A DNA stretch of 30,399 nucleotides, from the IMG/VR virus record IMGVR_UViG_3300030108_003432, positions 1 to 30,399 of that record. One strand, written 5' to 3'. Positions within the stretch are counted from its first letter, which is position 1. The number at the start of each line of letters is the position of its first letter. Source of the DNA: a virus. The notes beneath the pieces were generated by a model, which saw only the letters and a list, made by a program, of their open reading frames with translations, searched no databases and was not told the origin of the DNA. A program made the translations under genes and the position numbers. This document shows positions 3,228-24,078 of this stretch, one piece after another.

Positions 3228-3506
3228 ATGGCCAAAGATACAATCCTTACACGCATTGGAGTAAAAGGATATAACAAGCCTAAAGCTACACCAAATCACC
3301 CTAAAAAAAGTCACGTTGTTGTAGCAAAGGAGGGTAACAAAGTAAAAACAATTCGATTTGGTCAACAAGGGGTTTCTGGTGCTGGCAAGAATCCTAAAAC
3401 TAGAAAGCAAAAAATGAGGCGTAAATCGTTTAAAGCACGACATGGAAGAAATATTAAAAAAGGAAAAATGTCAGCAGCATATTGGGCTAATAAGGTAAAG
3501 TGGTAG
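3228..3506 (+). CDS. Small basic phage protein, DUF6321-like
   Basis: This very basic protein has 92 residues, with K/R clusters throughout. Characteristic blocks are G-V-K-G-Y-N-K-P-K-A-T-P near the start, T-I-R-F-G-Q-Q-G-V-S-G-A-G in the middle, and F-K-A-R-H...G-K-M-S-A-A-Y-W-A-N-K-V-K-W at the end. This is the pattern I recall for a widespread small phage family (DUF6321) of unknown role, perhaps DNA-associated or virion internal. GGAG eight bases before ATG sets the start. It is the last + strand gene of the left block, and its 3' end overlaps the convergent helicase gene by about 20 bases, leaving no room for a spacer terminator. Confidence 0.7.
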   Translation: MAKDTILTRIGVKGYNKPKATPNHPKKSHVVVAKEGNKVKTIRFGQQGVSGAGKNPKTRKQKMRRKSFKARHGRNIKKGKMSAAYWANKVKW

Positions 3507-4848
3507 CCATTATAGCATCGGCCACATTTTGTTTTTTTACCAAAGCTGATATAATTCGGTGATCCATTAAGTTACCTAACAAGTCAACGTACATTACCGG
3601 GTGATGTTGACCGTGTCGATGATTACGATCTTCTGACTGCACCCTAGCATCTAAATCATATACATTTTCATAGTATACTGATGTATAACAGGGAGAATTA
3701 TCGTTGCCTAACAACGTATGACCGTACTTAGCAGACGATATTTGGCATATAATTACCTCTTTATCACCTTCATTAAAATTAAATTTTGCTAACTCTATTT
3801 CTTGCTGAGACATGCCGCCAGCAATAAAAGTGCATCGATCCTTAAACGTTTCTACTAAAGAAAATACCGACCGTTTGTAAAAAGCAAACACTATTACTTT
3901 GCTATTTGCTTGTTCTACAATCTCTTCTACCACTTTTATCTTAGGATTGTTATCACTTGGCACTATAGTGTGAGTATTACCTTCTTCATCGATAATAAAC
4001 CCAGACCCTATTTGCTGTAACTTCATAGCTTGAGTAATAGCCATAGGTGCCGTTATACTGCCTTCCTCTATCTTTATTACAAAATCTTTGTGCATTTGAG
4101 TATACATTTCTTTTTGATTTTTAGTCATATCATAGTCTCTCGTAGAGTATGACTTGTCTGGCAAATCAGTCCATTCTTTCTTCTTAGCTCTAAAAGAAGC
4201 TGCGGTTAGTATTTGTTCTAGCTCCTTGCTATTTCTGCTACCAACAATCTCTTTACCAAGGTAGCCGCCCATAATACAAAAGCGATTTCTAAATGCGTAG
4301 GGGTTCCTAGTACCAACGTGTCCTATTACTTTTAATTGACCCCATAAGTCCATAGCGGATTTAGTAACCGGTTGCCCAGACAGCACCCTTACCACTTTTG
4401 CTTCTTTAGCTAAATTGATAGCCCTTTTAGTGCGCATAGCTCTTGGGTTTTTTAGTGCAATGGACTCATCAAATACTAAGTACACTGATCGTTCTTGCAT
4501 CATATCCGATAGTATTTTTTGCCCTTTTTTAGTAGAGATAGCTTCATAATTAATAGCCATCATAATGTTAACGCCTTCTGGTATATAAGGCCAAGGGGCA
4601 TAACTAATACCTGTTACGCCTTGCTTTTCAGCCTCTATCATCCAGTTAGTTTTAAGAGAATTAGGACACACAACTATCATAAAATCAACAACATCTTTGT
4701 AGATTAGGTCAGTAAATTCAGACCAACATACAGCCGATTTACCAAGTCCCATCTCCATAAAGTAAGCGTAGCCTTCTTTACCTTCAGCCGATTTTAAAGC
4801 TTCAAGCTGTACTTTATACGGCTTAGATGATAAATGCCATTTTGTCAC
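3487..4848 (-). CDS. SNF2-family DEAD/DEAH helicase
   Basis: This 453-residue superfamily 2 helicase/translocase has all the motifs. Q-like P-Y-K-V-Q lies near residues 10-14, motif I M-G-L-G-K-S at 33-38, Ia V-V-C-P-N-S-L-K-T-N-W, a DEAH-box variant F-D-E-S-I-A-L-K-N-P, motif III V-L-S-G-Q-P-V-T, and motif VI R-V-Q-S-E-D-R-N-H-R-H-G-Q. These are typical of SNF2-like phage helicases that move on double-stranded DNA. I chose the GTG at 4848 because it overlaps the upstream stop as GTGA and has AGGGG nine bases before it; a GTG three codons earlier (4857) is the alternative. It is the last gene of the leftward operon, directly behind the Z-synthesis genes. A role in replication restart, recombination or branch migration is inferred. 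Confidence 0.88.
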   Translation of the reverse strand: MTKWHLSSKPYKVQLEALKSAEGKEGYAYFMEMGLGKSAVCWSEFTDLIYKDVVDFMIVVCPNSLKTNWMIEAEKQGVTGISYAPWPYIPEGVNIMMAINYEAISTKKGQKILSDMMQERSVYLVFDESIALKNPRAMRTKRAINLAKEAKVVRVLSGQPVTKSAMDLWGQLKVIGHVGTRNPYAFRNRFCIMGGYLGKEIVGSRNSKELEQILTAASFRAKKKEWTDLPDKSYSTRDYDMTKNQKEMYTQMHKDFVIKIEEGSITAPMAITQAMKLQQIGSGFIIDEEGNTHTIVPSDNNPKIKVVEEIVEQANSKVIVFAFYKRSVFSLVETFKDRCTFIAGGMSQQEIELAKFNFNEGDKEVIICQISSAKYGHTLLGNDNSPCYTSVYYENVYDLDARVQSEDRNHRHGQHHPVMYVDLLGNLMDHRIISALVKKQNVADAIMATTLPY

Positions 4849-5435
4849 TTTACCCACCCCTTTGTAGTCATAGTTTTAGTACGCACCGGGTCTAAAATCT
4901 TCCCCATAAACATATCATAAAGACCGTTGCCGGGGTTGCCGTCTATTAAGTTGCACACCTCTTTGAGACTATGAATTAATTCTCTCTGTAACGTTGGTAT
5001 AGTGTCATTACCAAGATCAGTTTCATCAGATAAAAACATACACGCCTCAAATAAATCAGCTGCCTTAAGTATGTTTTTTTCGTCCATATCAAGAGGTATA
5101 TTTGTTAACCCACTAAGGTCCTCTAAAAGTGCGCCCTGCTGTATATGTAGGTGCCTCTTTTTTGCTGGTGCCGGTATATCCCCTGTTAGCATCTCGTCCA
5201 TGTCGTGCATTAAAGCCGCTTGGATTAACTTTAGTCGACGCAAAGGATCATACCCCAACCAACGGGTAATATAGTTAACGTATAGAGCAACATAATAGCT
5301 GTGTTCTGCTACATTTTGATTTTGAATAGTTCTAATAATTGTCCAACGTGGAACGTTACTCAGTATCCTTATCTGAGAGTCCAGCAGGTCTAAGGATACG
5401 AAGTCCTCTATCTCTTGCTTGCTCAACGTCGTCAT
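4845..5435 (-). CDS. datZ: HD-domain dATP triphosphohydrolase, DatZ-like
   Basis: This 196-residue HD phosphohydrolase is of the YfbR/DatZ type. Visible metal ligands and motifs are H45 in N-V-A-E-H-S, H77-D78 with E81 in M-H-D-M-D-E, then L-T-G-D-I-P-A-P-A-K (83-92) and D127 in A-A-D-L-F-E. R30-W31 precede the first histidine as in YfbR. In phages with purZ, the DatZ members remove triphosphate from dATP and so keep adenine out of the genome; YfbR members act on dNMPs. The placement next to purZ favours DatZ. The start at 5435 has GGGGAG upstream; an earlier in-frame ATG at 5516 lacks a ribosome site. The first 80 bases overlap the small gene before it. Sequence alone cannot settle dATP versus dNMP specificity. 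Confidence 0.82.
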   Translation of the reverse strand: MTTLSKQEIEDFVSLDLLDSQIRILSNVPRWTIIRTIQNQNVAEHSYYVALYVNYITRWLGYDPLRRLKLIQAALMHDMDEMLTGDIPAPAKKRHLHIQQGALLEDLSGLTNIPLDMDEKNILKAADLFEACMFLSDETDLGNDTIPTLQRELIHSLKEVCNLIDGNPGNGLYDMFMGKILDPVRTKTMTTKGWVK

Positions 5436-5562
5436 AATACATCTCCCCTGTTTTAGTGTCCTTATACATCCAAGATATGAGAACGTTGTTTTCTGACCAG
5501 TGGCCGTGCGATTCAAAACCGGGTGGCAAATCCTTAATCTTTGGTAACATCTTATTATTCAT
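5356..5562 (-). CDS. 68-residue protein of unknown function inside the Z cassette
   Basis: This is a small acidic/basic mixed protein with the readable blocks L-P-P-G-F-E-S-H-G-H-W and T-G-E-M-Y-Y-D-D-V-E-Q-A-R-D-R-G. The latter reads like a short substrate- or partner-binding module rather than random sequence. It starts inside the end of purZ (ATGAATAA overlap), and its 3' end overlaps the start of the datZ-like gene by 80 bases, so all three are translated as one block. A second ATG four codons further in is an alternative start. There is no membrane segment or catalytic motif that I recognise. Position is the only clue, and an accessory to PurZ or DatZ is possible. Confidence 0.55.
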   Translation of the reverse strand: MNNKMLPKIKDLPPGFESHGHWSENNVLISWMYKDTKTGEMYYDDVEQARDRGLRILRPAGLSDKDTE

Positions 5563-6634
5563 CTGCTGCGTCCTTAATAAACGGTGAAGTAGAAACATCC
5601 TCTACATTTGGTCCTCTGCTATATAACATGATTGGGTCTTTACGCATAATACGTTTATACTTAGGGCTTAATTGGTTTAATAGATGAGCTAAATCGTCAT
5701 TAGGCATATAATTTAGAAAGTTAAGGAATAAAATTGTTGGTCGATTTTCAGTAACGGCATCTATAAACTGCGCCCATGACCAAGTAAATACTCGCCTTAC
5801 CCGTCCAGTAACGGTAGTCATTTCTGCCGGTACCCCCAACTTTTCCCACGACAATTCATACTGGTCAGGATATACAGGGCCAGAAGTACCTATTGGATTG
5901 CCTTTACCGTCAAATATGCTTCCTACCCTAATAGGATATGTTCGCATAGACTGTACTACTTCACCTAAAAATGAGGCGTGGATACCTGCGTCACTTAATC
6001 CCTGCATTACTGTGCACTGTCTGCTAGTAGTGTATGGGTAAAATGGCCCATTTATAGACAAGCTGTACCCTTGTGGCACCTCAACCGAAACACGTGCACC
6101 ATTTTGTAATGATGTGTTCAAATCAACCGTGCCTATCAGCGGTAATAACTCTTTTACTTCACGGGCAATATTAAGACCTTTGCGTCCAATTTTAGCCGCT
6201 AAAGCAGCACCTACCCCTTTTTGAGTAGACGCAACGCTAGTAGCCCCAGATTCATGCATCTTTTCTTGAGATATGTGATCGTCCGTAATCACCGCTGCAT
6301 TAGGGTGTATTATTACACGATCAAAATCAATATTTAGAGTATCTAACTCTTCGAATAATAATCCTGGGTTAATAATAGCCCCGGCGTTTAAATATATCTT
6401 ACAATCTGGTTGCACTACTCCAAACGTAGGCATATGATAGCAGCAAAACCCTTCTTTGTCTTTGTATTTGGTCCAGTGTCCGGCGTTAGCACTAGCGTTT
6501 GTAACAGCATAGTCAACTTCATTACTAGGCTGGTGTGCTAAGTACGCCGCTAAAAGTCCTTTCCCTGTAGAGCCAAACTGTCCGTCTACCAATACAGCAG
6601 CTTTACCGCTATCAATATATTTAACTTCGCTCAT
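5555..6634 (-). CDS. purZ: PurZ, 2-aminodeoxyadenylosuccinate synthetase
   Basis: This 359-residue relative of adenylosuccinate synthetase is shorter than bacterial PurA (about 430). The P-loop reads D17-G-Q-F-G-S-T-G-K-G26. The catalytic Asp of PurA (G-D-E-G-K-G) is replaced by S22, the hallmark I know for phage PurZ. The N-A-G-H motif with its conserved His (H53) is kept. Known PurZ enzymes join dGMP and aspartate using ATP or dATP to give 2-amino-dAMP-succinate; host PurB then releases fumarate to give dZMP. GGAGAG lies before the ATG, and the start overlaps the upstream pyrophosphohydrolase gene by 14 bases. Neighbours (pyrophosphohydrolase, DatZ-like, DNA polymerase A) match known Z-genome phages. 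The substrate (dGMP rather than IMP) is inferred from the motif and the context. Confidence 0.93.
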   Translation of the reverse strand: MSEVKYIDSGKAAVLVDGQFGSTGKGLLAAYLAHQPSNEVDYAVTNASANAGHWTKYKDKEGFCCYHMPTFGVVQPDCKIYLNAGAIINPGLLFEELDTLNIDFDRVIIHPNAAVITDDHISQEKMHESGATSVASTQKGVGAALAAKIGRKGLNIAREVKELLPLIGTVDLNTSLQNGARVSVEVPQGYSLSINGPFYPYTTSRQCTVMQGLSDAGIHASFLGEVVQSMRTYPIRVGSIFDGKGNPIGTSGPVYPDQYELSWEKLGVPAEMTTVTGRVRRVFTWSWAQFIDAVTENRPTILFLNFLNYMPNDDLAHLLNQLSPKYKRIMRKDPIMLYSRGPNVEDVSTSPFIKDAADE

Positions 6635-6911
6635 TTTTATCTCTCCACATTAAGAATATGGCACAACACATCGCATGAGCTAAGTGATGAATATTCGTCT
6701 CTTTATCAACTCTTTCACCTAGCCGCCATGCTATGATGTGACGCATCATTGCATCAAAATACCGATCCCAATCGTCGCACTCTTTCCAATTATCAACACC
6801 ATACTTATCAGCGCCAAAATCAAATACCGATACAACGTCGTTGATAATCTCAAACGGTAACAACCGCCATCTCCTCTTTCCACCATCAAATTTCTTAAAT
6901 GGCTTAGACAT
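6621..6911 (-). CDS. dATP/dGTP pyrophosphohydrolase-like protein (DUF5664/PF18909 type)
   Basis: This 96-residue protein begins K-K-F-D-G-G-K-R-R-W-R-L-L-P and continues with F-G-A-D-K-Y-G-V-D-N-W, then R-Y-F-D-A-M-M-R-H-I-I-A-W-R-L-G-E and H-H-L-A-H-A. This string matches my memory of the phage dATP/dGTP diphosphohydrolase N-terminal family. In Z-genome phages an enzyme of this kind converts dGTP to dGMP, the PurZ substrate, and may also attack dATP. The start at 6911 has GAGGG upstream and overlaps the nuclease gene by 8 bases; the 3' end overlaps purZ. A second, MazG-type candidate for the same step lies at 11359-11655. Family call good, exact substrate inferred. Confidence 0.75.
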   Translation of the reverse strand: MSKPFKKFDGGKRRWRLLPFEIINDVVSVFDFGADKYGVDNWKECDDWDRYFDAMMRHIIAWRLGERVDKETNIHHLAHAMCCAIFLMWRDKNERS

Positions 6912-7329
6912 TTTTACCCTCTAACTTATCATACCAGTGTAGCATAGATTTGACAATATGGTCAACAGGCCAGGGGTTTGTCAAATCTATGCAATCGCAA
7001 TTATTGCCAGCAGAAGCATATTTTACATTTGGGTCAGCACCCACATATACCGATTTCTTTTGAGTAGATACCTCTTGAAGCAAAGCCCACCCGCAAGGCT
7101 GACCGGCACGAACAAAGCGTGATAAAGTCTCCCGCTGCAGTTCAGTAAGGCCTACTTCTAATTTAGATGTAGAAGCCTTTTTACATTCTACAAAAATGCC
7201 CTCGCGTGAAGGCCATTTTAAAAATAAATCTGGTATACCAGCTTGGTGACGAGTAGCTATTTTAAAACCAAAACCGTCATTTAGTCTGGTTTCCTTAACT
7301 AGCTTAGCTTGAAAGTCTAATTCCTTCAT
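6904..7329 (-). CDS. VRR-NUC / PD-(D/E)XK-type nuclease
   Basis: This 141-residue protein has the small nuclease core: E3 near the start (M-K-E-L-D-F-Q), R-H-Q-A-G-I-P-D-L-F-L-K-W in the middle, and I-F-V-E-C-K-K-A as the (D/E)xK strand. VRR-NUC domains cut branched or flapped DNA and often sit beside SNF2 helicases in phages; here such a helicase is four genes downstream in the same operon. The ATG overlaps the lipoprotein stop (ATGA) with GGGAAG upstream. The C-terminal third (after the nuclease core) has no recognised motif. A role in recombination or Z-DNA repair is inferred. Confidence 0.72.
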   Translation of the reverse strand: MKELDFQAKLVKETRLNDGFGFKIATRHQAGIPDLFLKWPSREGIFVECKKASTSKLEVGLTELQRETLSRFVRAGQPCGWALLQEVSTQKKSVYVGADPNVKYASAGNNCDCIDLTNPWPVDHIVKSMLHWYDKLEGKNV

Positions 7330-7625
7330 TGTATCTTCCCAATAGTTAAAGGACAGTTAGGGCAAGGAGAAAATAACACTTGCTTTTGACTAGACGGAGC
7401 GCACGTAACATCAACCACTATTGGCGAATAACGCCCATTAATTTTAACTCTAGAGTGAATAACTACTGCTCTATGATTAGCAGATTCACACTCACTTATA
7501 GCAGAGATAACTTCTTGCCTAGTCATTTTATATAAAGATTGATCGCTTACGTCAAGTTTAATATCAGGCGTCTCGTTTTGAGTACACCCAGCTAATAACA
7601 AAGCAAATGGTAAAATATACTTCAT
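7326..7625 (-). CDS. Small lipoprotein
   Basis: This 99-residue protein has a classic lipoprotein signal: M-K-Y-I-L-P-F-A-L-L-L-A-G-C, with cleavage expected before the Cys at position 14, followed by T-Q-N-E. The mature part is about 86 residues with three further cysteines, two of them in a C-P-N-C motif near the C-terminus. GAGGA precedes the ATG. It lies between the DNA polymerase and nuclease genes and is translationally coupled to the latter. A phage lipoprotein expressed with early genes could act in superinfection exclusion or envelope modification, as known for other phage lipoproteins, but no family is recognised. Confidence 0.65.
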   Translation of the reverse strand: MKYILPFALLLAGCTQNETPDIKLDVSDQSLYKMTRQEVISAISECESANHRAVVIHSRVKINGRYSPIVVDVTCAPSSQKQVLFSPCPNCPLTIGKIQ

Positions 7626-7628
7626 ATT

Positions 7629-9500
7629 TTAGTCCTCTCCGTAACTAGCAACTGCCCAATTTAGTCCTATACCTTCATCTACATCCATCGGTACGCGAAG
7701 TTCTACTAGCCTCTTAGGCCCAAAATCAGTCATTATTTTTAGACATTCACGATATAGTAGTGGCCCATAAGGGTCATCTTTTGCGTATTGAAAATCAATT
7801 GAATCGTGTATGTTTAACAACATTTCGCACTCTTCTGGATCGTACTGCCCTTTGCCGCTTAAATGGTCATCTATATCGGCCATAGCCTTCTTAATAATGT
7901 CCGCATTGGAGCACTGTAATAGTCGGTTGATAGCCTTATAACTATTAGAGCCACCGTTACTAAAATATTGTATTCTAGCTCGTCTACCAAGTATAGACCG
8001 TACAAATCCCCTATCCTGCATTACATTTGCGGCGTGTTTTTGAATCGCCTTAATCTCGGGCATAGCATTAAAGTAGTTGTTGTATATACGATTACCCTCT
8101 GTCTCGCTTACTCCTAATTCTTGTATCAATTTCGGCTTGCCCATACCAGTAATTAGGCCCTGATTTAGTCTTTTACCGGACGTTCTATCGATATTTGCCG
8201 CTTTAGCAACCGCTGTATGCGCATCGATGGCGGGAACCTGTAAGTATCCATCCACGAGTACCTTACAATTCGAATAGTGTGCAAGTAACCTCGGCTCACA
8301 TTGAGAGTAATCCACGCTGGCCCATACCATACCATTATCGGGAATAAAAATAGATCTAAATAAACGGCCAAGCTCCTCATTTCTTTTAGGTACTTGTTGG
8401 AGATTTGGCCGTGAAGAGCTAAGTCTGCCAGTGACAGTTCCATACTGATCTGATTTCGACTGATTGAACTCCGTATGAACTCGGCCTTTCCAAATGTGGG
8501 TGTCCATCGGCGCAATAAATGAGTCCAATAAATTCCTATACTTCCTTGCCACAACGACATGCTTACCAATCTCCGTGGTTAATAACCAAGATTCTGCAAA
8601 AGACGGGTTGCCTTTTTCAGTAACAGGCCAATTTGTTATACCATGATCCGTAAATAATTTTACCATCTGACTTGGTGCACGAGTATTTAAGTCTGCGGGT
8701 AAAGCGTCCATAGCTTTGTCTAAGCGGTCTTCCACTATCTTTTTTACTTGTTGTAGTCTATCTTCATCAACCTTAACGCCACGCATCATCATTCTATGCA
8801 GCGGGTTTATTGTTCTACACTCTAAATCGTGTATGTTATTTAACTCCTGCTTGTCTATTTGCCTTCTTTGCCACTTCCACAACTCATAAGTGCTGATCCC
8901 GTCCGCCAAGGCGTATTCCACCGCAAGATCATCCAGACCGTCGAGCCGCCAGTATGATGCCATCTGTTTACGATCAGGTCGACCACCAAATTTACTGGCC
9001 ATATAAGCGTAAAGCTCACTACCAAGTTTTGCGGATACCTTCGCATCGATGCAGCAATTTTCAAGCGAATAGGAGTTACGATACTCATCAATTAACCCCG
9101 CATTAATCATTGTACACTCTAATGTATTTGACACGGGATTAATTCCGTGCTTAGCCATAAATTTTAAATCAAAGTGTAGATTGTGACCTATAATTCTTAA
9201 TTTTTTGCCCCGTTCCTTAAAGATGGTAGCAACTTCTTTTTCAAATTGATGGGTTGGTATTGGTAAGTCAAAATCAGCCGTGGCAGGAGCAATATAGCCG
9301 CCCACATTATTGCCGTTATGACGAACAGGCACATAATAATTATCCCCGTCGTCAGTACCAAAGGTAAAAACGTAGCCAACACTATAATTTGTACGCCAAT
9401 CAAGGCCAGACGTTTCCACATCAATAACTAACTCCGTTGTCTCCGGAGAAGTTAATCTCCGGAGCAACGAAGCGCAATCCTCCATGGATTTACACAGCAC
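7629..9500 (-). CDS. dpoZ: Family A DNA polymerase with 3'-5' exonuclease (DpoZ candidate)
   Basis: This 623-residue polymerase has a DEDDy exonuclease: ExoI D27-V-E29, ExoII N107-L-H-F-D111, ExoIII Y196-A-L-A-D200. The palm and fingers show T-G-R-L-S-S near 357, motif A D397-Y-S-Q-C-E402, motif B R439-T-S-G-K443-R-L-N-Q-G-L-I-T451-G, and motif C I-H565-D566-S567. Compared with E. coli Pol I, the F762 position is Q447, the Y766 position is T451, and the HDE motif C is HDS. In purZ phages the linked PolA-type enzyme (DpoZ) favours dZTP over dATP; that property is inferred here. The GTG start overlaps the upstream stop by one base (TAGTG); an ATG five codons later is possible. Confidence 0.88.
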   Translation of the reverse strand: MLCKSMEDCASLLRRLTSPETTELVIDVETSGLDWRTNYSVGYVFTFGTDDGDNYYVPVRHNGNNVGGYIAPATADFDLPIPTHQFEKEVATIFKERGKKLRIIGHNLHFDLKFMAKHGINPVSNTLECTMINAGLIDEYRNSYSLENCCIDAKVSAKLGSELYAYMASKFGGRPDRKQMASYWRLDGLDDLAVEYALADGISTYELWKWQRRQIDKQELNNIHDLECRTINPLHRMMMRGVKVDEDRLQQVKKIVEDRLDKAMDALPADLNTRAPSQMVKLFTDHGITNWPVTEKGNPSFAESWLLTTEIGKHVVVARKYRNLLDSFIAPMDTHIWKGRVHTEFNQSKSDQYGTVTGRLSSSRPNLQQVPKRNEELGRLFRSIFIPDNGMVWASVDYSQCEPRLLAHYSNCKVLVDGYLQVPAIDAHTAVAKAANIDRTSGKRLNQGLITGMGKPKLIQELGVSETEGNRIYNNYFNAMPEIKAIQKHAANVMQDRGFVRSILGRRARIQYFSNGGSNSYKAINRLLQCSNADIIKKAMADIDDHLSGKGQYDPEECEMLLNIHDSIDFQYAKDDPYGPLLYRECLKIMTDFGPKRLVELRVPMDVDEGIGLNWAVASYGED

Positions 9501-9772
9501 TAGAACTTTACCTCATCATCTAAAGGTAAATCGGTCTGTGCCGTTAATTTTGTATTACTAGGTGAATAGTCTGCACCATAATCGCTTGCCTCAAAAGCCA
9601 TGATGCGCCACCCATTCTCCCCATTGTTTTGCACCTGCGGTGCCGGTATAGAGTTTAGCATGATAGCGTACCCTTTACCGTTTTTTTGAGGAAACATTGT
9701 TCCAATCCTGTGCCAAAACGTCTTACCATCTTTGCCAGGAATCGGCACGGATAAATCATAACGGTCTGCCAT
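9500..9772 (-). CDS. Small protein with acidic, Phe-ending tail (SSB-like candidate)
   Basis: This 90-residue protein opens V-P-I-P-G-K-D-G-K-T-F-W-H-R-I-G-T-M-F-P, continues through K-N-G-K-G-Y-A-I-M-L-N-S-I-P, and ends D-L-P-L-D-D-E-V-K-F. The first part recalls small proteins found on plasmids and phages that carry a W.rIG..fp..nG.G....l...P pattern. The acidic tail ending in Phe is the arrangement used by SSB and T7 gp2.5 for partner binding. It is fused by TAATG and TAGTG overlaps to the genes on both sides, directly before the DNA polymerase. DNA binding is an inference from the tail and location. Confidence 0.6.
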   Translation of the reverse strand: MADRYDLSVPIPGKDGKTFWHRIGTMFPQKNGKGYAIMLNSIPAPQVQNNGENGWRIMAFEASDYGADYSPSNTKLTAQTDLPLDDEVKF

Positions 9773-10575
9773 TAGAACGTGTCCTCTATAACAGCTTCTT
9801 CTTGCTGTATATCTTCTTCGTCTTTAACAGCAACACCCCGCGCTTTAAAGTACTGATACATATCGCGCATTTCAGAAGCCATATCCTTATCTACCACGCC
9901 AGTTGACTCAAATTTGTAGTCAAAAAACGTGCCGCTGGCGTGATCGTGTTTATAACTAGACATATTAAACACGCGCCCCCAGCTAGGTAGTCTGCTGATG
10001 CCTAGCTTAGACACGAATTTTTTGCCTACACCAAGCGATGCCTTACTTAGCGACACAATAGCAGGTGATAGTTCTGGATGATCCGGAAACCAAGACACAA
10101 CGTTAATATTCAACGTCGCAGCTGGCTTACTATTATCATCGTCTGGGTCGGACGAGCCAAAGTTAGACAGCCCAGATGCTTGTACAGATGTACCGGTATC
10201 CCAAACTACGGACTTGCCCGTGTCTAGTTTTACCTCAAACTGCTGATTAGGCCGATCCCAACGAACGCCATCATCAGCTCTAGCCAGGATGCCGCCGCCA
10301 TCTTTACGTGGACGCCATAGCACCACGGATTTTGTAACAAGTAGCGGCACCATCTGTACTTCCTTGCCCATCGACTGCTCAGCGATGGTGTGGTAAAAAT
10401 TACCGCCTTTTTCGTCACCCTCGCTTACCTCAGGTGATAAAGCTTGAAGTAGCTTAACCCTAGGCACCACAGCAAGGTCAGACGTGTTCTCTACGCCTTC
10501 GCCGCTATAGTCAGCAAGGTAATCAGGCACCGCATCTACGGCACTGGTCGACTTTTTTGCAACAGCTTTTGCCAT
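9772..10575 (-). CDS. Putative ssDNA-binding or recombination accessory protein
   Basis: This 267-residue protein has a low-complexity Ala/Lys start, then V-P-R-V-K-L-L-Q-A-L-S-P-E near residue 40, followed by a globular part with several Trp and beta-prone segments. The C-terminus is strongly acidic (D-E-E-D-I-Q-Q-E-E-A-V-I-E-D-T-F) and ends in Phe, as in single-strand binding proteins. The order coiled helper, this protein, small SSB-like protein, DNA polymerase supports a replication role. AGGAG eight bases upstream fixes the start at 10575. I do not recognise a named family with certainty; a single-strand binding or annealing function is inferred from the tail and neighbours. Confidence 0.6.
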   Translation of the reverse strand: MAKAVAKKSTSAVDAVPDYLADYSGEGVENTSDLAVVPRVKLLQALSPEVSEGDEKGGNFYHTIAEQSMGKEVQMVPLLVTKSVVLWRPRKDGGGILARADDGVRWDRPNQQFEVKLDTGKSVVWDTGTSVQASGLSNFGSSDPDDDNSKPAATLNINVVSWFPDHPELSPAIVSLSKASLGVGKKFVSKLGISRLPSWGRVFNMSSYKHDHASGTFFDYKFESTGVVDKDMASEMRDMYQYFKARGVAVKDEEDIQQEEAVIEDTF

Positions 10576-10590
10576 TATCTTTCTCCTATT

Positions 10591-11046
10591 TTAGACTTTG
10601 GTTACAGACGTATTTTGCAAGATGTATACGTTAAATACGTCCTCGGGTAGCTCCTTACCCTCTTCTAACAAGGTACGAGCCGTGGCTGACAGGGTAGACG
10701 AATTCACAGTCTCTGTGATTAAGTCTTCCAAGTCATTGTCGCGTAGCCAATCATAACCGGCTACTTTGTCCTTCATTGAAGCACGGACAGTCTCACTTTT
10801 CGTAAAGCGATGTCCATTAACAGTAATAGAAGTACACCCAGCCTCTTCAAACTTACTAGGTACAACTTCTTCCTTTAGCCTCTTGTAAATCTCGCCAGAC
10901 TGAGACTTCAAATCTTTAATCAGCTCGTCTAGCACACGCGCCTCTAGCAAAATGCTAACTGCCGTTTCAATTGGCTCATTTGCTAAATCGTCCGCTTCTT
11001 TTTTAAGGGACTCAATCCCTCTAAGCAAGTCTTTATACTTAGTCAT
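10591..11046 (-). CDS. Helical hypothetical protein next to SSB-like genes
   Basis: This 151-residue protein has an N-terminal half that is a long charged helix (residues 5-65). A small domain around T-V-N-G-H-R-F-T follows, and the C-terminal segment W-L-R-D-N-D-L-E-D-L-I-T-E-T-V-N then E-L-P-E-D-V-F-N-V resembles a block I have seen in unassigned phage proteins that travel with recombination genes. AGGAG eight bases before ATG gives the start. It lies 15 bases upstream of the SSB-like gene and probably works with it. No enzymatic motif is visible. Confidence 0.6.
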   Translation of the reverse strand: MTKYKDLLRGIESLKKEADDLANEPIETAVSILLEARVLDELIKDLKSQSGEIYKRLKEEVVPSKFEEAGCTSITVNGHRFTKSETVRASMKDKVAGYDWLRDNDLEDLITETVNSSTLSATARTLLEEGKELPEDVFNVYILQNTSVTKV

Positions 11047-11048
11047 AT

Positions 11049-11366
11049 TTACTCTCCTATATGAATGGGGTAATACTCCCCATACCGATTATCCCACTTT
11101 AACACGCGGAATCCATTATAGCCGTGATTAATTAACCACGTGCTAACCATAATCGAAGTAGTCATACATCCAATTGGCACTAAGTAGTCGGTATACAAAT
11201 TAAAATCCGCCAATTTAGCATCGCATAGAGCATTAACATACTCCTTATTCTCTGATACGTCGTCGGGGTAAAACCCACGCCTAAATAGAAAAATAGGATC
11301 ACCCCACCGATCAAGTGAACTAAAATCCATCTTGTTTGATTTTTGAATAACGTATGCTTTAGCCAT
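11049..11366 (-). CDS. Hypothetical protein, 105 residues
   Basis: This is an aromatic-rich protein with the segment L-D-R-W-G-D-P-I-F-L-F-R-R-G-F-Y-P near the start and several Tyr/Trp in the last third. There is no membrane segment and no motif I recognise. The ATG at 11366 overlaps the end of the MazG-like gene by 8 bases, so translation is coupled; no strong ribosome site is present. A TTG one codon earlier is possible but unlikely. It lies in the dNTP/SSB block of the operon. Confidence 0.5.
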   Translation of the reverse strand: MAKAYVIQKSNKMDFSSLDRWGDPIFLFRRGFYPDDVSENKEYVNALCDAKLADFNLYTDYLVPIGCMTTSIMVSTWLINHGYNGFRVLKWDNRYGEYYPIHIGE

Positions 11367-11655
11367 CAAACATATCCGGATTCTGACGATTGATTATTGC
11401 GTGATAAATCATACAATAATTAGCTACATCCGCAAGCTCATCTTTAAGCTCGCTAAGATCACCAAATCGAATAGCTTGCTCGACCTCAACCACCTCTTCT
11501 AGTAAAAGGCCCATCACCTTTTCAGTGTCAAGATCATCCCATCCGCCTTTATTGCGGTGTACGTACAGCTTGTGTATCATCTGATTCACAAATCGCTGTA
11601 TGTCACCTGAGTATTGAGCAATCTCGTCGGGGATTTCAATTAAGATAGTAGCCAT
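11359..11655 (-). CDS. MazG-like (DUF550-type) nucleotide pyrophosphohydrolase
   Basis: This 98-residue all-alpha enzyme hydrolyses (d)NTP to (d)NMP and pyrophosphate. The metal-binding motifs are E53-E54-V-V-E57 and E73-L-A-D76 followed by N79. Before these stands H-R-N-K-G-G-W-D (33-40), which I associate with the DUF550/MazZ-type subgroup. In Z phages such an enzyme supplies dGMP to PurZ; otherwise it could clean noncanonical nucleotides or hydrolyse dATP. It is the first gene after the promoter at 11767-11795, with AGGAG eight bases upstream of ATG, so it is probably made early. It duplicates the proposed activity of the gene at 6621-6911. Confidence 0.8.
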   Translation of the reverse strand: MATILIEIPDEIAQYSGDIQRFVNQMIHKLYVHRNKGGWDDLDTEKVMGLLLEEVVEVEQAIRFGDLSELKDELADVANYCMIYHAIINRQNPDMFDG

Positions 11656-11798: not shown

Positions 11799-12206
11799 CT
11801 ACGTGAAGAACATTAGTAGAACCGTTCTGTCGCCACTATGTTTATGTACTTTGTGTTCTACATCAGAAGACGTAAGCACCATCATTCCTTGTTCTACAGG
11901 CGCATACTCTGTTCTTGTTTGATACTTTCCGCCAGCAAATTCGTCTGGATGTGACAATAGTATAGAAGCTGCAAACGTACACCATTGCATATGACCTTGT
12001 GTTCCTTTATCAGTGTGCCAAGGGTGTCCTTCTTTGCGAGTTTCTACCCTAGCATACGCCGGGTCTGCAGTGTTTATGGCAGCAATTTCACTAATATCAT
12101 AGCAAAGGTTGTTTATTATTGGGTCTGTCCAAGGGACGTGTTGCTTAAACGTTCTAAAATACTGACACTCATCAGCAGACAAAACGTTAGGCAGAAATCT
12201 TATCAC
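11799..12206 (-). CDS. 2OG-Fe(II) dioxygenase-like protein
   Basis: This 135-residue double-stranded beta-helix oxygenase has the iron ligands H64 and D66 in W-H-T-D and distal H118 in D-V-E-H-K-V. R127 in S-G-D-R-T-V, at the usual spacing, would bind 2-oxoglutarate. The pattern resembles small phage prolyl-hydroxylase/PiuC-like enzymes. The substrate is unknown: a protein side chain, a nucleotide or a DNA base are all possible. The start is GTG with GAGGG seven bases upstream, overlapping the preceding gene by 20 bases. It is the last gene of the primase transcription unit. Confidence 0.78.
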   Translation of the reverse strand: MIRFLPNVLSADECQYFRTFKQHVPWTDPIINNLCYDISEIAAINTADPAYARVETRKEGHPWHTDKGTQGHMQWCTFAASILLSHPDEFAGGKYQTRTEYAPVEQGMMVLTSSDVEHKVHKHSGDRTVLLMFFT

Positions 12207-12530: not shown

Positions 12531-14855
12531 TCAAAGATCAAGGTTCTTCATTTCATAAGACCCCGGTGCTTTGTAATGAGAAGTTAACTCGGTTTCACTC
12601 ATAGATTGAAAAGTGTCTGCATTTCGAATTGCCCACACACGAGGCTTGGACCCATCCTCAAAACGCTTCTGACCTAGCATCTCCCCGCCTAATTCCCTTA
12701 ACGTATTAGACACGTGCACGTTGCTGATCTTACCTAGACCCGGTATGTTTTTTAAAGACTGAATTAGATCAGCTACTATTATTAAGTCACATTTCATTGG
12801 CCATTCTTGCGCTTCTATTTGTTCAAAAAGATAAGACTTTAATGGACGCTCGCTTGCTTCTGCCATCTCAAAGAATGACTCAGTCTTAGGTGGCGGAGCG
12901 TCAGGATCGAATTTACTTAGGTCGTAGTCTTCTGCCCATTTAGCTATAAGACTTAAATTCTCCTTAGTCCACGCAAACAGTTCATTGTAGTATTTTTTAG
13001 GCTTTGGCTGCGCATCTGAAAACCAGACCCAATATCGCCGGGTATCTTTAGTTAGAATCATTGCATCGCGGTGGTTAGTGGTACAGAAAAAGTTAGCCGT
13101 ATTATCAACCATATAAGCGTCTGTTCTCATCTTTCTTACAGCTACTTCATTCTCGGTAATCAACGGTTTTAGGTGATTGGCTACTTCTAGTCTACCTGCC
13201 GCCATAAGTTCTTCAATAAAAACTAATTCTGTATTAGCCACCCATCCGTTAAATTGTTCTTTTAAGTTATTAGTATTAACCTCTGTAACGTTGCGCGGCC
13301 CTACTATACTTTTCATTACTTGCTTTACGTAAGATTTACCTGTACCCTCATGGCCGCTGCCTATTACCACGGCATGACGTATTTTAACCCCAGGCTTAGA
13401 TATCGTATGGGCTAACCACGCGCTAAGGTGGTTGTATCCTGCTTTGTTGCCATCGGTTAAAAATTTTAAGTGATCGGTGAAAGGTTTAACGCTTGCTTTA
13501 TTATCAGCCGGTATTACATCGTGTCCTTTCCATGTGTTATATACTTTACGCTTTCGATGTACCGTAAAATCTGAATTTTCTCCCGGTACGTAAGTTAGCG
13601 TATCCACCACTCTTAGGTCAGAAGATTCTAGCATAATCTTTGATACGTTTTTGCCCGGTGCCATCGCCGCATGTGCGTTCTTTACCGATTCACGGCTGTA
13701 AGACAGTTCTCTATCTGGATCGTAGAACGCGTCCTCATTGGCTACGTATATGTAACGATCTAGAAGCTCGGTTATATCGACTTTTGCCTTGGTTCCACGC
13801 GCAAAGCCTTTATTAATCGCGCCATCTATCAACTGATCTAAAAACGTATCAGATTTGTATCGGTCCATCTCTCCTGCGGAGCGCTCTGGTACTACAACTG
13901 CGTCATCTATATAGCTGCGCACCAAGCGTTTTAACTCAGACCTGCCGCCGCGCTCTGGCTCGCCGTGGTGATTAATCCAACTGGCGATTCCCTGCATAAT
14001 CGGATGGTGGAACCCGTCCCTATCATCACCTATGCGATCAAAGAAGTTGATGTACCGTCTAGAATTTGACTCATCGCCGTCATCTACTATCCACTCAGAA
14101 CTTATATTAACGACGTCTTGTTCGACTTTAAATATTCCACTACGCTTAGGCAACGGATCGTCTACTTTATGTAGAACTGGTGCTGCGGTATAGTGCGGCT
14201 GTATCGGATTAAAAAGCGCCGGGTCCACCAACCTACGTCCATGCACTTGGACAAAAGACTCATTAAAGGTGTTAAAGTAGCGCCTTAGATCATCATCGCT
14301 TACTGGCACATCCAAAACAAATGATAGGTGGCAGCGCACAGTGTCGCCTTTAAAGCCCATTGAACTTGAATACCGCCAATGGCAACTTACGTTTTGAAAC
14401 ACGCCGGGTAACAAGTCTATGACCTCTAGTATCGACAATTCTGGATTAGTAGGGTCAAATTCTGAGGGTAGAATGCCAGTGTCACCAGCTGGTATGCCAT
14501 CGATATCAAGCGTTACCCAACGCCTCGACGCAAAAACCAAAGTTCCGGTGCCATCGTTTCTTACGATCCGCCGCACATCACATTCTAAATCGGTGGTCTT
14601 AGATGGATGGCCCCGCACAATAAAAGCGTAAGGGTTGCTATTAAGCTCTTCCATCTGGTCGAAAAAATCGTCTGGCGTGTCAAAACGAACCGGCCTAAAA
14701 CGAAATTCTTTTGATATTCTATTACTTATGATCTGGTATCCGCTTTTCTGCGGCTTAACCTGCTTGGTACAGTACTGCTTGGGTACTGGCTCTAATACGG
14801 TAAATTCGTGAGGCTGCGCATCCTGTAACAGCTCTGCTTCTGCTAATCTTGCCAT
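12531..14855 (-). CDS. Primase-helicase: AEP-like primase plus SF3/DUF5906 helicase
   Basis: This 774-residue replicative protein has an archaeo-eukaryotic-type primase in the N-terminal half: D117-I-D119 in V-T-L-D-I-D-G, H176 in V-R-C-H-L-S-F, and D-P-A-L-F-N-P-I-Q-P-H-Y-T-A-A-P near 211-226. The C-terminal helicase has Walker A G-H-E-G-T-G-K-S (501-508), Walker B L-V-F-I-E-E (544-549), sensor F-F-C-T-T-N (589-594) and D-T-R-R as arginine finger. Together these should synthesise primers and unwind the fork. The start is the ATG at 14855 with AGGAG seven bases upstream; an ATG seven codons earlier lies inside the leader. It is driven by the promoter at 14880-14908. Z-genome phages known to me also carry PrimPol-type primases. 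Confidence 0.88.
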   Translation of the reverse strand: MARLAEAELLQDAQPHEFTVLEPVPKQYCTKQVKPQKSGYQIISNRISKEFRFRPVRFDTPDDFFDQMEELNSNPYAFIVRGHPSKTTDLECDVRRIVRNDGTGTLVFASRRWVTLDIDGIPAGDTGILPSEFDPTNPELSILEVIDLLPGVFQNVSCHWRYSSSMGFKGDTVRCHLSFVLDVPVSDDDLRRYFNTFNESFVQVHGRRLVDPALFNPIQPHYTAAPVLHKVDDPLPKRSGIFKVEQDVVNISSEWIVDDGDESNSRRYINFFDRIGDDRDGFHHPIMQGIASWINHHGEPERGGRSELKRLVRSYIDDAVVVPERSAGEMDRYKSDTFLDQLIDGAINKGFARGTKAKVDITELLDRYIYVANEDAFYDPDRELSYSRESVKNAHAAMAPGKNVSKIMLESSDLRVVDTLTYVPGENSDFTVHRKRKVYNTWKGHDVIPADNKASVKPFTDHLKFLTDGNKAGYNHLSAWLAHTISKPGVKIRHAVVIGSGHEGTGKSYVKQVMKSIVGPRNVTEVNTNNLKEQFNGWVANTELVFIEELMAAGRLEVANHLKPLITENEVAVRKMRTDAYMVDNTANFFCTTNHRDAMILTKDTRRYWVWFSDAQPKPKKYYNELFAWTKENLSLIAKWAEDYDLSKFDPDAPPPKTESFFEMAEASERPLKSYLFEQIEAQEWPMKCDLIIVADLIQSLKNIPGLGKISNVHVSNTLRELGGEMLGQKRFEDGSKPRVWAIRNADTFQSMSETELTSHYKAPGSYEMKNLDL

Positions 14856-14879
14856 AATCTGTCTCCTAAACAGCACACT

Positions 14880-17357: not shown

Positions 17358-17410
17358 GGCGTGTTTCCTTTCGTGTCTGGCGGCGAGGCCGTTCCCCGTC
17401 CGCACCAAGA

Positions 17411-17439
17411 AGTGTACCACACGGAGCAGGCCTTGTCAA
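17411..17439 (-). promoter_or_regulatory. Leftward early promoter
   Basis: On the - strand, TTGACA (17439-17434) and TACACT (17416-17411) are 17 bases apart, with TGG before the -10. The -10 element and the bases around it (TGGTACACT) are identical to the rightward promoter at 18012-18040. Transcription would start near 17404, about 47 bases before the first early gene. Confidence 0.78.
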
Positions 17440-17448
17440 GTCCCTCGT

Positions 17449-17950
17449 GACGACGAGGCACGAGGCGGCGGAGAGGCGAGGCAAAAAAGAAAAAAAGAAC
17501 GCGCGCGCGAGGAGCAGCACCAGGAGAGGAGAAAAAAAGACGAGGCACGAGGCCCTGACGAGGCGAGGCGAGGCGTGGTCGAGGCCCTGGTCGTCGTCGT
17601 TTGCCTCTTGCGCCTCGCGTTGCCTTGGGTCGTCCTGGTGACGAGAAGAAAAAGAAAAGCGGACGAAAAAAGGCGCGGCAGCACCCCGTCGACCCCCCTC
17701 CGAGACGAACCCGACAGAGGCGAGGCGCGCGAGGCAGAGGCACGACCACCACACCGGCAGAAGGCAACAAAACAGAAAGAAGCAAGGCACACGAGGCAGA
17801 AGGCAGAAGGCAGAAGGCGGAACGCGACACAACGAAAGGCGGAACGCGACACAACAAAAGGCGGAAGGCGGAACGCGCGACGGAAAGAAAAGAACGCGCG
17901 ACGGAAGGCGGAACAGCCCCCACCCCCAAGACGACGCCACGACACAGCAA
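17449..17950. other. Divergent non-coding region with strand-biased, T-free tract
   Basis: No T occurs on the + strand from 17449 to 17555 (107 bases) or from 17700 to 17950 (251 bases). Between them, 17583-17640 has no A on the + strand, so the bias flips. By direct count, 17701-17940 holds 90 A, 70 C, 80 G and 0 T. Stop codons need a T, so every frame on the + strand is open here, and likewise every frame on the A-free - strand; the long reading frames in this region are therefore not evidence of genes. Short words such as GAGGC and GGCGGAA recur. The tract lies between the divergent promoters and upstream of the terminase genes; origin, packaging site or recombination site are possible roles. 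Confidence 0.75.
17796..17906. repeat. Short tandem repeats inside the T-free tract
   Basis: Three repeat types follow one another. AGGCAGA-like heptamers lie at about 17796-17815. Two 22-base units GGCGGAACGCGACACAAC(G/A)AAA lie at 17816-17837 and 17838-17859, with a partial third unit. The 15-mer GAACGCGCGACGGAA occurs at 17871-17885 and 17892-17906. All contain GGCGG or CGCG cores without T. Iteron-like binding sites for a replication or packaging protein are one explanation; slippage in low-complexity DNA is another. Confidence 0.6.
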
Positions 17951-17991
17951 TATGATGGGACCCGAAAAGCTAGCATATTTATTCTAAACAT

Positions 17992-21250: not shown

Positions 21251-22879
21251 ATGCCAACAGATGCACAATCTTATATAAAAAGATACGAAGAATTACGTAG
21301 TGACAGACGTAATTGGGAGCATCATTGGCAAGAAGTTGCTGAAGTAATTTTGCCCCGCCGTACTGATATTGTAGGATCACGTACACCCGGCGATAAACGA
21401 AATCTTAAAGCAATTGACAGTACAGGTATAATTGCTAATGAGCTTCTAGCGGCAGGTTTGCATGGTATGATGACTAATCCTGCATCTAAATGGTTTACCC
21501 TGCGTTTATCTAATCAGGCTTTAAACCAAGAAGCAGCGGTTAAAATGTGGCTTGAAAGTGTAGAACGTATTATATATGAAGAACTGTCGTCTTCTGAATC
21601 TAGCTTTTCAAGCCACATACATGAACTGTACTTAGACTTATCTGCATTTGGCACAGCGGTAATGTTTATTGGTGAAAGCGATCAGACTAAAGACCTTATG
21701 TTTACAGCTTTACCATTAAAAGAGTGTTATGTGTCTGAAAATTCTGATGGTCGAATTGATACTCTTTATCGCAAATTTGAACTTTCGGTTAGGCAAATTG
21801 TTCAAAAATTTGGTGATAAAGAAGATGACGTTGGTAAAGAAGTGTTAGAGTGTTATAATAATGACAAACTCGAAGACAAGTTTGAAATTATTCATGCTAT
21901 CTTTCCTAGATATGATTATGATAAACGTAAAAAAACTCGACAAAATAAACCCATTGCCTCTGTGTATGTATTGTGTAAATCTGAAATGATACTTGATGAA
22001 GGCGGGTTTGAGGAATCCCCTATTTTAGCTCCACGATGGTCTAAAGCTAGTGGTGAAGTTTATGGGCGTGGTCCTGGAATGGCTACATTGCCAGATGTTA
22101 AAATGCTTCAACAGATGAGCAAGACTATATTAAAAGCAGCGCAAAAGATAGTTGACCCTCCTTTACAGCTTGAAGACGACAGTGTTATGCTACCAGTGCG
22201 TACAATTCCTGGCGGTCTTAATTACCGTAGATCGGGATCTGACCCAATTCAGCCTTTAGCTACAGGGGGTAATATCCCTATCGGCCTTGAGATGATGCAA
22301 GATGTGCGTTTACGAATTCGTGAAGGGTTTTTCCTGGACCAATTGTCACTTCAACAAGGTCCTCAAATGACGGCTACAGAAGTATTACAAAGAACGGAAG
22401 AAAAATTACGGTTACTTGGGCCAGTAATGGGAAGGCTTCAAAGTGAGTTGCTTTCACCATTGATTAATAGAGTATTTGGCCTATTAGGCAGACAAAATAA
22501 GCTACCACCAATTCCAGAAGAGCTACAAGATCAAAGTTACACAATAGAATTCGTATCTCCCTTAGCTCGTGCACAGAGACAAGTTGAGGCTAACAGTCTT
22601 TTGCGAGTATTTGAGATCGGATCAACAGTAATTCAAATGCAACCTGAGTCCGGACGTGTATTTAAAGGTGAGGACACGATGCGGTGGCTTTCAGACTTAT
22701 TTGGCATACCAATGTCAATTCTAGAGTCACGGCAGGAAACGGCGGACCGTCGATCAGCTGAGCAACAACAAGCGCAAATGGCGCAACAGATGGCTATGGT
22801 TGAACAAGGTGCAAATGTCCTTAATAAGGCGGCCCCAGCAGTAGATGTCCTTAACCAAGCTACAGCAGCGGAAACGTGA
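21251..22879 (+). CDS. Portal / head-to-tail connector protein
   Basis: This 542-residue T7 gp8-like connector would form the dodecameric vertex through which DNA enters and leaves and to which the tail attaches. Family features include the opening Y-E-E-L-R-S-D-R-R-N-W-E-H-H-W-Q-E, A-A-G-L-H-G-M-M-T-N-P-A-S-K-W-F near residues 68-83, and Y-G-R-G-P-G-M-A-T-L-P-D near 273-284. M-T-A-T-E-V-L-Q-R-T-E-E-K near 376 and a Gln-rich C-terminus follow. AGGATAAGTG lies before the ATG. It supports the podovirus-like assignment of the whole window. The end overlaps the Bbp19-like gene by 35 bases. Confidence 0.92.
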   Translation: MPTDAQSYIKRYEELRSDRRNWEHHWQEVAEVILPRRTDIVGSRTPGDKRNLKAIDSTGIIANELLAAGLHGMMTNPASKWFTLRLSNQALNQEAAVKMWLESVERIIYEELSSSESSFSSHIHELYLDLSAFGTAVMFIGESDQTKDLMFTALPLKECYVSENSDGRIDTLYRKFELSVRQIVQKFGDKEDDVGKEVLECYNNDKLEDKFEIIHAIFPRYDYDKRKKTRQNKPIASVYVLCKSEMILDEGGFEESPILAPRWSKASGEVYGRGPGMATLPDVKMLQQMSKTILKAAQKIVDPPLQLEDDSVMLPVRTIPGGLNYRRSGSDPIQPLATGGNIPIGLEMMQDVRLRIREGFFLDQLSLQQGPQMTATEVLQRTEEKLRLLGPVMGRLQSELLSPLINRVFGLLGRQNKLPPIPEELQDQSYTIEFVSPLARAQRQVEANSLLRVFEIGSTVIQMQPESGRVFKGEDTMRWLSDLFGIPMSILESRQETADRRSAEQQQAQMAQQMAMVEQGANVLNKAAPAVDVLNQATAAET

Positions 22880-23099
22880 TTTTAAAATAACTTTCGGCAG
22901 CGAAGAGGGTAAACGTGTATTAAATTATTTAATACGCGCAAACCACATACTAGAACCTACCTTTTCTGTAGATGCAATTCAATCTGCTTTTAATGAAGGG
23001 CGCAGAAATGCGGTTCTTGAGATAATGTCTGTTTTACATTATCGGCCAGACGATTTTTTACAACTTGCCAGTAATGTAGAGGAGAACAAAGATGAGTGA
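22845..23099 (+). CDS. Bbp19-like small virion assembly protein
   Basis: This 84-residue protein has F-K-I-T-F-G-S-E-E-G-K-R-V-L-N-Y-L, then S-A-F-N-E-G-R-R-N-A-V-L-E-I-M-S-V-L, the pattern I know as the Bbp19-like phage domain, usually encoded between portal and scaffold. The start overlaps the portal gene by 35 bases in another frame. Its stop overlaps the scaffold start by eight bases. The exact role is not known; capsid assembly is inferred from position. Confidence 0.72.
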   Translation: MSLTKLQQRKRDFKITFGSEEGKRVLNYLIRANHILEPTFSVDAIQSAFNEGRRNAVLEIMSVLHYRPDDFLQLASNVEENKDE

Positions 23100-23925
23100 A
23101 GAAGCACCCGTAGAAGAAACAGCCGTAGAAGAAGCACCCGCACCCGTTGTTGAAAGTGCACCTGTTGAAACAACTCCTGATGATTGGAAGCAATCCTTAT
23201 CAGAGGAAGTGCGAGATCATGCATCTCTTAAAAAGTATACTTCTGTAGAAAATCTTGCAAAAGGGTATATTAACGCTTCATCAATGCTTGGAAAAGACAA
23301 ATTAGTAAAACCCTCAAGTGATGATGAGTGGAATGATTTTTATAACGATATGGGACGACCAGAGAGTCACGAAGGGTATAAATTTACGTATGCGGCTGAA
23401 GTTCCTGAGGGGCTACAGGGCTACGTTGAAGGTAGGGTTGAGTCTTTTAAAGAAAGCGCTCATAAGCTTGGTCTTACTAGTCAACAAGCAGACGGACTAT
23501 ATACATGGTATATGGAAGGTAACGTTAATAATGCAAAACAGCTTGAAGAACAAGCTGTTGAGCTTGAGCAACAAGCCGAGTACGAACTAAAAAAAGAGTG
23601 GGGGCCTGCGTATGAAGAAAAAATTACGCAGTCTCAGGCTGCGTTAAGTCAATTTGCTTCGCCTGAGTTTGTAGATTATCTTGAAAAGACTCAATTAGGG
23701 AACAATCCACATATGATTCGAGCTTTTGCAAAGATTGCTGAAGGTATGATGGAAGATGGCCAAATTATGGGAGTCGAGTCTACACAACCTACTGTAGCTC
23801 AAATAGACAACGATATTAGCGCTGTTATGGCAAATCCTGCTTATTGGGACGCTGATTCTCTTGAAAGACCTAAATTGGTAGCTAAGGTTCACGAGTTAAT
23901 TCAATTAAAAGAGGCATCAGAATAA
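23092..23925 (+). CDS. Capsid scaffolding protein
   Basis: This 277-residue protein has an acidic, Pro/Ala/Val/Glu-rich N-terminus (1-30), a central part with D-D-W-K-Q-S-L and S-V-E-N-L-A-K-G-Y, and long helical coiled segments (about 120-185, E-E-Q-A-V-E-L-E-Q-Q-A-E). This composition and its place between portal and major capsid protein match the T7 gp9-type scaffold that shapes the procapsid and leaves before DNA packaging. GAGGAG nine bases before ATG decides the start. It is followed by the strong promoter at 23926-23955. Confidence 0.82.
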   Translation: MSEEAPVEETAVEEAPAPVVESAPVETTPDDWKQSLSEEVRDHASLKKYTSVENLAKGYINASSMLGKDKLVKPSSDDEWNDFYNDMGRPESHEGYKFTYAAEVPEGLQGYVEGRVESFKESAHKLGLTSQQADGLYTWYMEGNVNNAKQLEEQAVELEQQAEYELKKEWGPAYEEKITQSQAALSQFASPEFVDYLEKTQLGNNPHMIRAFAKIAEGMMEDGQIMGVESTQPTVAQIDNDISAVMANPAYWDADSLERPKLVAKVHELIQLKEASE

Positions 23926-23955
23926 TTGACACGTGGTTGCTTAATAGGTTATAAT
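23926..23955 (+). promoter_or_regulatory. Consensus promoter and leader of the major capsid gene
   Basis: TTGACA (23926-23931) and TATAAT (23950-23955) are both perfect consensus, 18 bases apart, starting one base after the scaffold stop. The transcript would begin near 23962, giving a leader of about 117 bases before the capsid ATG. In that leader, 23976-24002 can fold (ACGG...CCGT outer, CGAAT/ATTCG inner). The site gives the capsid gene an extra dose of transcript. Confidence 0.8.
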
Positions 23956-24078
23956 CCTTGCGAAAGTGGCGTAAAACGGACACCGAATAAATATTCGCCC
24001 GTATAGCCCACTCCAAAGAGGCCGGACTTCCGATACCCTCAATGGACTAGTGAAAACTTTCAAAACGGGAAATGACAA

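Follow-up and report, generated by a model that had tools for sequence, protein, structure and literature searches.

Genomes in which 2-aminoadenine (Z) stands in for adenine are one of the few natural swaps of a DNA letter. Does the virus record IMGVR_UViG_3300030108_003432 derive from a phage of this kind, and what polymerase would then copy its DNA? We analysed the whole record of 30,399 bases (the window). An earlier note had described it as carrying a complete Z cassette in a single leftward operon, composed of purZ, a DatZ-like hydrolase, two candidate pyrophosphohydrolases and a PolA-type polymerase. All five ORFs were recovered at the same positions on the minus strand, and Pfam, PHROG and NCBIfam searches bore out their families (Table 1). 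They lie inside a single leftward series of ORFs that overlap or almost touch; it begins at 14876 with a primase/helicase and ends at 3487 with a SNF2-type helicase. We read this block as a putative operon that serves replication and the nucleotide pool in a Z-genome phage, in which dZTP would be made, dATP removed and A replaced by Z, and give this reading a probability of about 0.86. We observed directly the genes and their families, the catalytic residues, the order of the genes and their conservation among a clade of related contigs, and each enzyme is predicted to act as its characterised relatives do. No terminal repeats were found in the 30,399-base record, Rfam and tRNA scans of the window gave no matches, and neither did a DNA-level search of isolate phages with the window.

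Table 1. Features of the window, with the matches by which they were assigned.
Feature	Position	Strand	Basis
SNF2/superfamily II helicase at the end of the block	3487..4857	-	Pfam, PHROGs
datZ, HD-domain dATP triphosphohydrolase	4845..5435	-	PHROG 7076 3e-21; Pfam YfbR-like 1e-15
68-aa ORF, conserved, between purZ and datZ	5356..5562	-	comparison of clade loci
purZ, N6-succino-2-amino-2'-deoxyadenylate synthetase	5555..6634	-	NCBIfam PurZ 3e-69; PHROG 1211 5e-63
stand-alone DUF5664 dATP/dGTP diphosphohydrolase	6621..6911	-	Pfam PF18909 2e-31
endonuclease-like protein	6904..7329	-	PHROG 93
A-family DNA polymerase with 3'-5' exonuclease	7629..9500	-	Pfam DNA_pol_A 1e-59; NCBIfam DpoZ_1 1e-97
Pam3 gp34-like protein, replication module	9772..10575	-	database match
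Pam3 gp33-like protein	10591..11046	-	database match
mazZ-2, MazG-like pyrophosphohydrolase	11359..11655	-	Pfam MazG 5e-6
primase/helicase, DUF5906/VapE-like domain	12531..14876	-	Pfam, PHROGs
portal and capsid region	21251-24963	+	closest to HTVC010P/HTVC034P-type pelagiphages

In the purZ product, whose PHROG family is annotated as '2-aminooxy adenylosuccinate synthetase', the motif GSTGKG places Ser22 at the position of the catalytic Asp13 of PurA. Alignment found Ser at this position in 75/75 PurZ rows, against Asp in the PurA of E. coli. The contacts listed for the dGMP pocket of S-2L PurZ (PMC8342488) were also largely kept (G22, N49, A50, T132, Q190, R240, V241, T273 and R280 in S-2L numbers). 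The earlier note had proposed a tree against PurA as a check. In a quick tree with E. coli as the sole PurA outgroup and archaeal PurZ-like rows left out, a supported split placed the window protein with PurZ, separate from PurZ0 (Wayne, Archimedes) and from E. coli PurA. There it was nested in an uncultured radiation, with the group of phage OH beside that radiation. Identity was 37% to phiVC8 PurZ in the multiple alignment and 44-47% to OH PurZ (47% in the multiple alignment). The protein scored 233 bits with the PurZ model and 163 bits with the PRK04293 adenylosuccinate synthetase model. The former lies below the trusted cut-off of 300 for NCBIfam NF038379; since OH PurZ (241 bits) also falls under 300, this cut-off excludes the entire lineage, and OH is counted in the literature among the Z-cluster phages. 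In a search of 84,980 cellular species, each represented by a single genome, no PurZ of the window clade was found, and the best match was 43%. We conclude from these comparisons that 5555-6634 encodes a genuine PurZ, for which use of dGMP is predicted.

The neighbouring DatZ, from a PHROG family annotated as 'dATP triphosphohydrolase', kept 15/15 tested S-2L positions, including R19, W20, I22, P79, K81 and K116. The tested positions cover the HD metal ligands and the phosphate and base contacts of S-2L DatZ, in which I22 shuts out the 2-amino group and W20 the ribose (PMC8065100). The start of datZ is uncertain because the conserved 68-aa ORF, which also overlaps the purZ stop, runs over the annotated DatZ N-terminus. 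Relatives begin closer to the motif aligned with 'LLDSQ', and translation may in fact begin downstream of 5435. This small ORF was found in 6/7 members of the window's clade, the exception being L002. More distant homologues occur in L032 and L046/L047, and every locus with a match has PurZ. Its short forms gave no significant match in Pfam or PHROG.

Two candidate dGTP/dATP pyrophosphohydrolases had been proposed, and they proved to be of different kinds. The sole isolate match of the 11359-11655 protein was OH MazZ-2 (47% identity), so that this gene belongs with the MazZ-2 of known Z phages. Its acidic positions E54, E57, E73 and D76 were invariant across 20 homologues. Its predicted model (mean pLDDT 93) was closest to the MazG-fold structure 2P06 (Z 11.3, rmsd 1.7, 79 residues); S-2L MazZ was not among the structural matches listed, which excludes nothing. 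This MazZ-2 is the expected supplier of dGMP for PurZ, judging by its family. The gene is not placed between purZ and datZ; it precedes the polymerase, at 4.7 kb upstream of purZ, and is so placed in L002, L016, L018 and L019 as well; this is a matter of layout that leaves the protein family unaffected. A MazZ-1 (DUF550) profile search of the window gave no match.

The second protein, from 6621-6911, is instead a DUF5664 enzyme, its Pfam family PF18909 being the dATP/dGTP diphosphohydrolase N-terminal domain formerly named DUF5664. The gene overlaps the purZ start by 14 bp. DUF5664 of phage Wayne hydrolyses dATP, dUTP and dGTP to monophosphates, dATP fastest, and in PurZ-type phages the domain is often fused to DUF550 (PMC12884076); in the window, unlike those phages, it is a gene of its own and not fused. 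A sequence search of the PDB and a Foldseek search with the predicted model gave no match and no significant match, respectively. VIA-align ranked 2P06 best (Z 8.2 over 77 residues at rmsd 2.8, the second-ranked row reaching Z 4.8), a match too weak to establish the fold of a helical bundle. In the DUF5664 tree the window clade stood separate (support 99), and neither joining it to the fused DUF5664-2 group (p-AU 0.43) nor joining it to the DUF5664 of Wayne (p-AU 0.15) was rejected. These values do not establish that DUF5664 entered Z phages a third time independently.

A profile search of viral contigs gave 422 PurZ matches, from which 80 PurZ loci were retained. The gene types that the earlier note had assigned to a Z cassette recurred together on most of the 80 PurZ contigs other than the window. 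Counting the window, 53 loci have 2.5 kb or more of sequence on each side of purZ; of these, DatZ was present in 41, MazZ in 40 and both in 36. Seven records (the window, L002 and L016-L020, of which L017 and L018 are near-copies) share one layout, with DUF5664 immediately upstream of purZ, datZ downstream, and MazZ-2 ahead of the polymerase wherever the contig extends so far. In nearly all other PurZ loci, MazZ-2 adjoins purZ and no DUF5664 stands beside it. The seven-record clade was highly supported in the PurZ, polymerase and DUF5664 trees separately. The PurZ diversity retrieved is mostly uncultured and outside the characterised isolates, with a polymerase lineage that has a different active-site solution.

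Other arrangements were seen among these loci. L202 (IMGVR_UViG_3300028584_000048) has PurZ, a phiVC8-like polymerase and a DUF5664 that is again a gene of its own but immediately follows datZ, which makes a second layout of this type. In L032, PurZ (residues 5-360) and a MazZ-2 domain (residues 400-479) share a single open frame at 9983-11425 (+), apparently a natural fusion. Eight loci on virus contigs of 67-287 kb (L053, L054, L062, L064, L067, L069, L070 and L076) carry PurZ with the Ser and gave no DatZ or MazZ profile match within flanks of up to 10 kb per side; the partner genes may be located elsewhere, or PurZ may do without them.

The polymerase is of the A family, as the earlier note had it, and belongs to a PurZ-linked lineage, one that is neither phiVC8-like nor Wayne-like. 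Both its polymerase site and its exonuclease site retain their catalytic residues. Its O-helix reads KRLNQGLITGM, with Gln and Thr at the positions of PolA Phe762 and Tyr766, where phiVC8-like DpoZ has Leu and Phe (L455/F459) and sister groups have Met/Thr or Met/Ser. The enzyme lacks insertions 2 and 3 of the fingers that are described for phiVC8 DpoZ (PMC8599892), a Z-selective polymerase with a solved structure: the R754-to-K758 span has 5 residues against 12 in phiVC8-like DpoZ, and the interval between helices O1 and P has 11 against 29-31. Its NCBIfam score of 328 is below the trusted cut-off of 500, as is that of the OH polymerase (253). A careful tree, from which phiJL001 was left out, resolved three PurZ-linked groups: Wayne-like, phiVC8-like and OH-like, the last including the window. 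The OH-like and phiVC8-like clades received 100/100 each, and their sister relation was neither supported nor rejected (p-AU 0.31).

Tyr766 was absent from 52/60 polymerases of PurZ+ loci and from 1/84 of loci without a PurZ match, the 52 comprising the F762/Y766 pairs QT (24), MT (12), LF (10), MS (3), FF (2) and MN (1). An altered O-helix pocket thus accompanies PurZ, as an association and not a test, because the set of 84 is narrow, many contigs are short and independent events on the tree are few; a test of independent pairs found 2-3 pairs and was powerless. Y766 of Pol I contributes to fidelity at the nascent base pair (PMC4882331), and its replacement may serve Z selection. It is possible, though we would not yet favour it, that the OH-like enzymes constitute a third Z-selecting lineage among DNA polymerases, selective without the phiVC8 insertions by way of a rebuilt base-pair pocket. 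Discrimination of Z from A could be tested on the two substituted residues.

Taken together, these proteins suggest the following scheme. MazZ-2, perhaps with DUF5664, would convert dGTP to dGMP, which PurZ would join to aspartate in a succino precursor. Host PurB would free dZMP from the latter, and host kinases would raise it to dZTP. DatZ would degrade dATP to dA and DUF5664 would turn dATP, with some dGTP, into the monophosphate, leaving a pool with dZTP instead of dATP, from which the A-family polymerase of the phage would insert Z opposite T. The cassette that had been called complete is so for its phage-encoded part; PurB and the nucleotide kinases must be the host's. Predicted biosynthesis of Z and removal of dATP, in keeping with the earlier note, are supported by the PurZ tree, the active-site residues, the neighbouring DatZ and MazZ-2 and the recurrence of the gene set on other PurZ contigs. 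We infer Z in the virion DNA; the polymerase, which lies outside both characterised DpoZ types, may itself prefer dZTP. No base analysis appears in the part of the OH paper available to us (PMC7139368).

If A is replaced by Z, A-containing sites would be shielded from restriction and GC-only sites would not. We compared the log observed/expected of 6-bp palindromes, with GC in the regression, between 65 PurZ+ loci and two sets, 93 PurZ- loci from other searches and 43 loci found with an arbitrary 14-mer. A-containing palindromes were less avoided in PurZ+ loci (effect 0.23 and 0.29, t 5.45 and 5.43), and GC-only palindromes showed no relief, being avoided as much or more (-0.27 and -0.39). The window itself gave -0.14 for A-containing and -0.90 for GC-only 6-bp palindromes. 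With 4-bp palindromes the difference between PurZ+ and PurZ- loci was not A-specific. The test was conceived once the genes had been analysed, and it used phylogenetically non-independent loci and sets that differ in phage taxa and hosts; its signal is correlational, at the level of the population, consistent with Z in DNA and of moderate weight. It offers a sign, from sequence alone, that Z genomes are shielded at A-containing sites.

Could the same genes instead serve ordinary nucleotide salvage, with a PurA-like enzyme and housekeeping hydrolases aiding dNTP supply and normal A in the DNA? This was what the OH authors first proposed for the OH genes in 2020 (PMC7139368), and DUF5664 does occur in hundreds of phage records, mostly without PurZ. 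However, a dATP-destroying enzyme beside PurZ is unfit for dATP supply, the synthetase carries Ser in place of the catalytic Asp and falls among PurZ proteins, and DatZ retains both specificity residues; we consider salvage very improbable. Substitution might also be partial, a non-discriminating polymerase and incomplete removal of dATP yielding a mixture of Z and A in proportions that the nucleotide pool dictates. The position of the polymerase outside the characterised DpoZ clades and its lack of insertions 2 and 3 fit such a mixture, two dATP consumers (DatZ and DUF5664) would fit reliance on pool control, and the PrimPol of S-2L is itself non-selective (PMC8065100). Yet S-2L replaces all its adenines by means of DatZ despite that polymerase (PMC8342488, PMC8065100), and the altered O-helix pocket accompanies PurZ, which makes a mixed genome unlikely.

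The capsid and portal are 57% and 48% identical to those of pelagiphages of the HTVC010P/HTVC034P/HTVC035P kind, and the window phage is probably marine, since its virion genes resemble theirs. The Z cassette is found here in a relative of well-known marine phages; none of the HTVC010P/HTVC034P-type pelagiphages is among the PurZ-bearing isolates listed. Elsewhere in the window, a 135-aa protein (11799-12206, minus strand) shows by eye an HxD...H pattern like that of 2-oxoglutarate/Fe(II) oxygenases; it had no match in Pfam or PHROG searches and could be a further modification enzyme. Between divergent gene blocks, a purine-biased, GC-rich block with short tandem repeats (AGGCAGA, AAGGCGGAACGCGACACAACAA) at 17400-17960 is a candidate origin or regulatory region.

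The closest isolate is Ochrobactrum phage vB_OspP_OH (Wolominvirus, MT028492), with identities of 47% for MazZ-2, 36% for the polymerase and 33% for the Pam3 gp34-like protein. Isolate matches of the latter with 84-93% coverage all came from PurZ phages (OH, Kokobel2, VLCpiS6a, K21lambda1 and PSA28), and the remaining ones covered just a 29% piece. OH shares with the window the order primase - gp34-like - PolA - nuclease - purZ - datZ - helicase and a polymerase of the same lineage. It differs in having MazZ-2 between purZ and datZ, no DUF5664 match in the stretch compared, M/S instead of Q/T in the O-helix, and annotated baseplate J-like genes. Acinetobacter phage SH-Ab 15497 and PMBT28-like phages resemble the window in PurZ, DatZ and a DUF5664 domain, but theirs is fused to DUF550/MazZ-1 and their polymerase, which has insertions 2 and 3, falls in the phiVC8-like clade. 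Vibrio phage phiVC8 and Alteromonas phage ZP6 likewise have PurZ, MazZ-2, DatZ and PolA; in them purZ, mazZ2 and datZ are contiguous, no DUF5664 was found, and DpoZ has L/F in its O-helix as well as insertions 2 and 3. ZP6 has, in addition, capsid, portal and terminase homologous to HTVC010P (PMC8515928), so that both it and the window carry HTVC010P-related virion genes. Cyanophage S-2L shares PurZ, DatZ and a MazG-fold MazZ, the latter of the MazZ-1 type, and has PrimPol in place of the PolA polymerase. Arthrobacter phage Wayne also has an active DUF5664 (PMC12884076), but combines it with PurZ0, DutZ/DmtZ instead of DatZ/MazZ, and a distant DpoZ. The system is thus of the known Z-genome kind and differs in arrangement and polymerase. 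New at the level of sequence are a DUF5664 in its own gene upstream of purZ, a MazZ-2 away from purZ, a polymerase without insertions 2 and 3, a small conserved ORF between purZ and datZ, and virion genes of the HTVC010P type.
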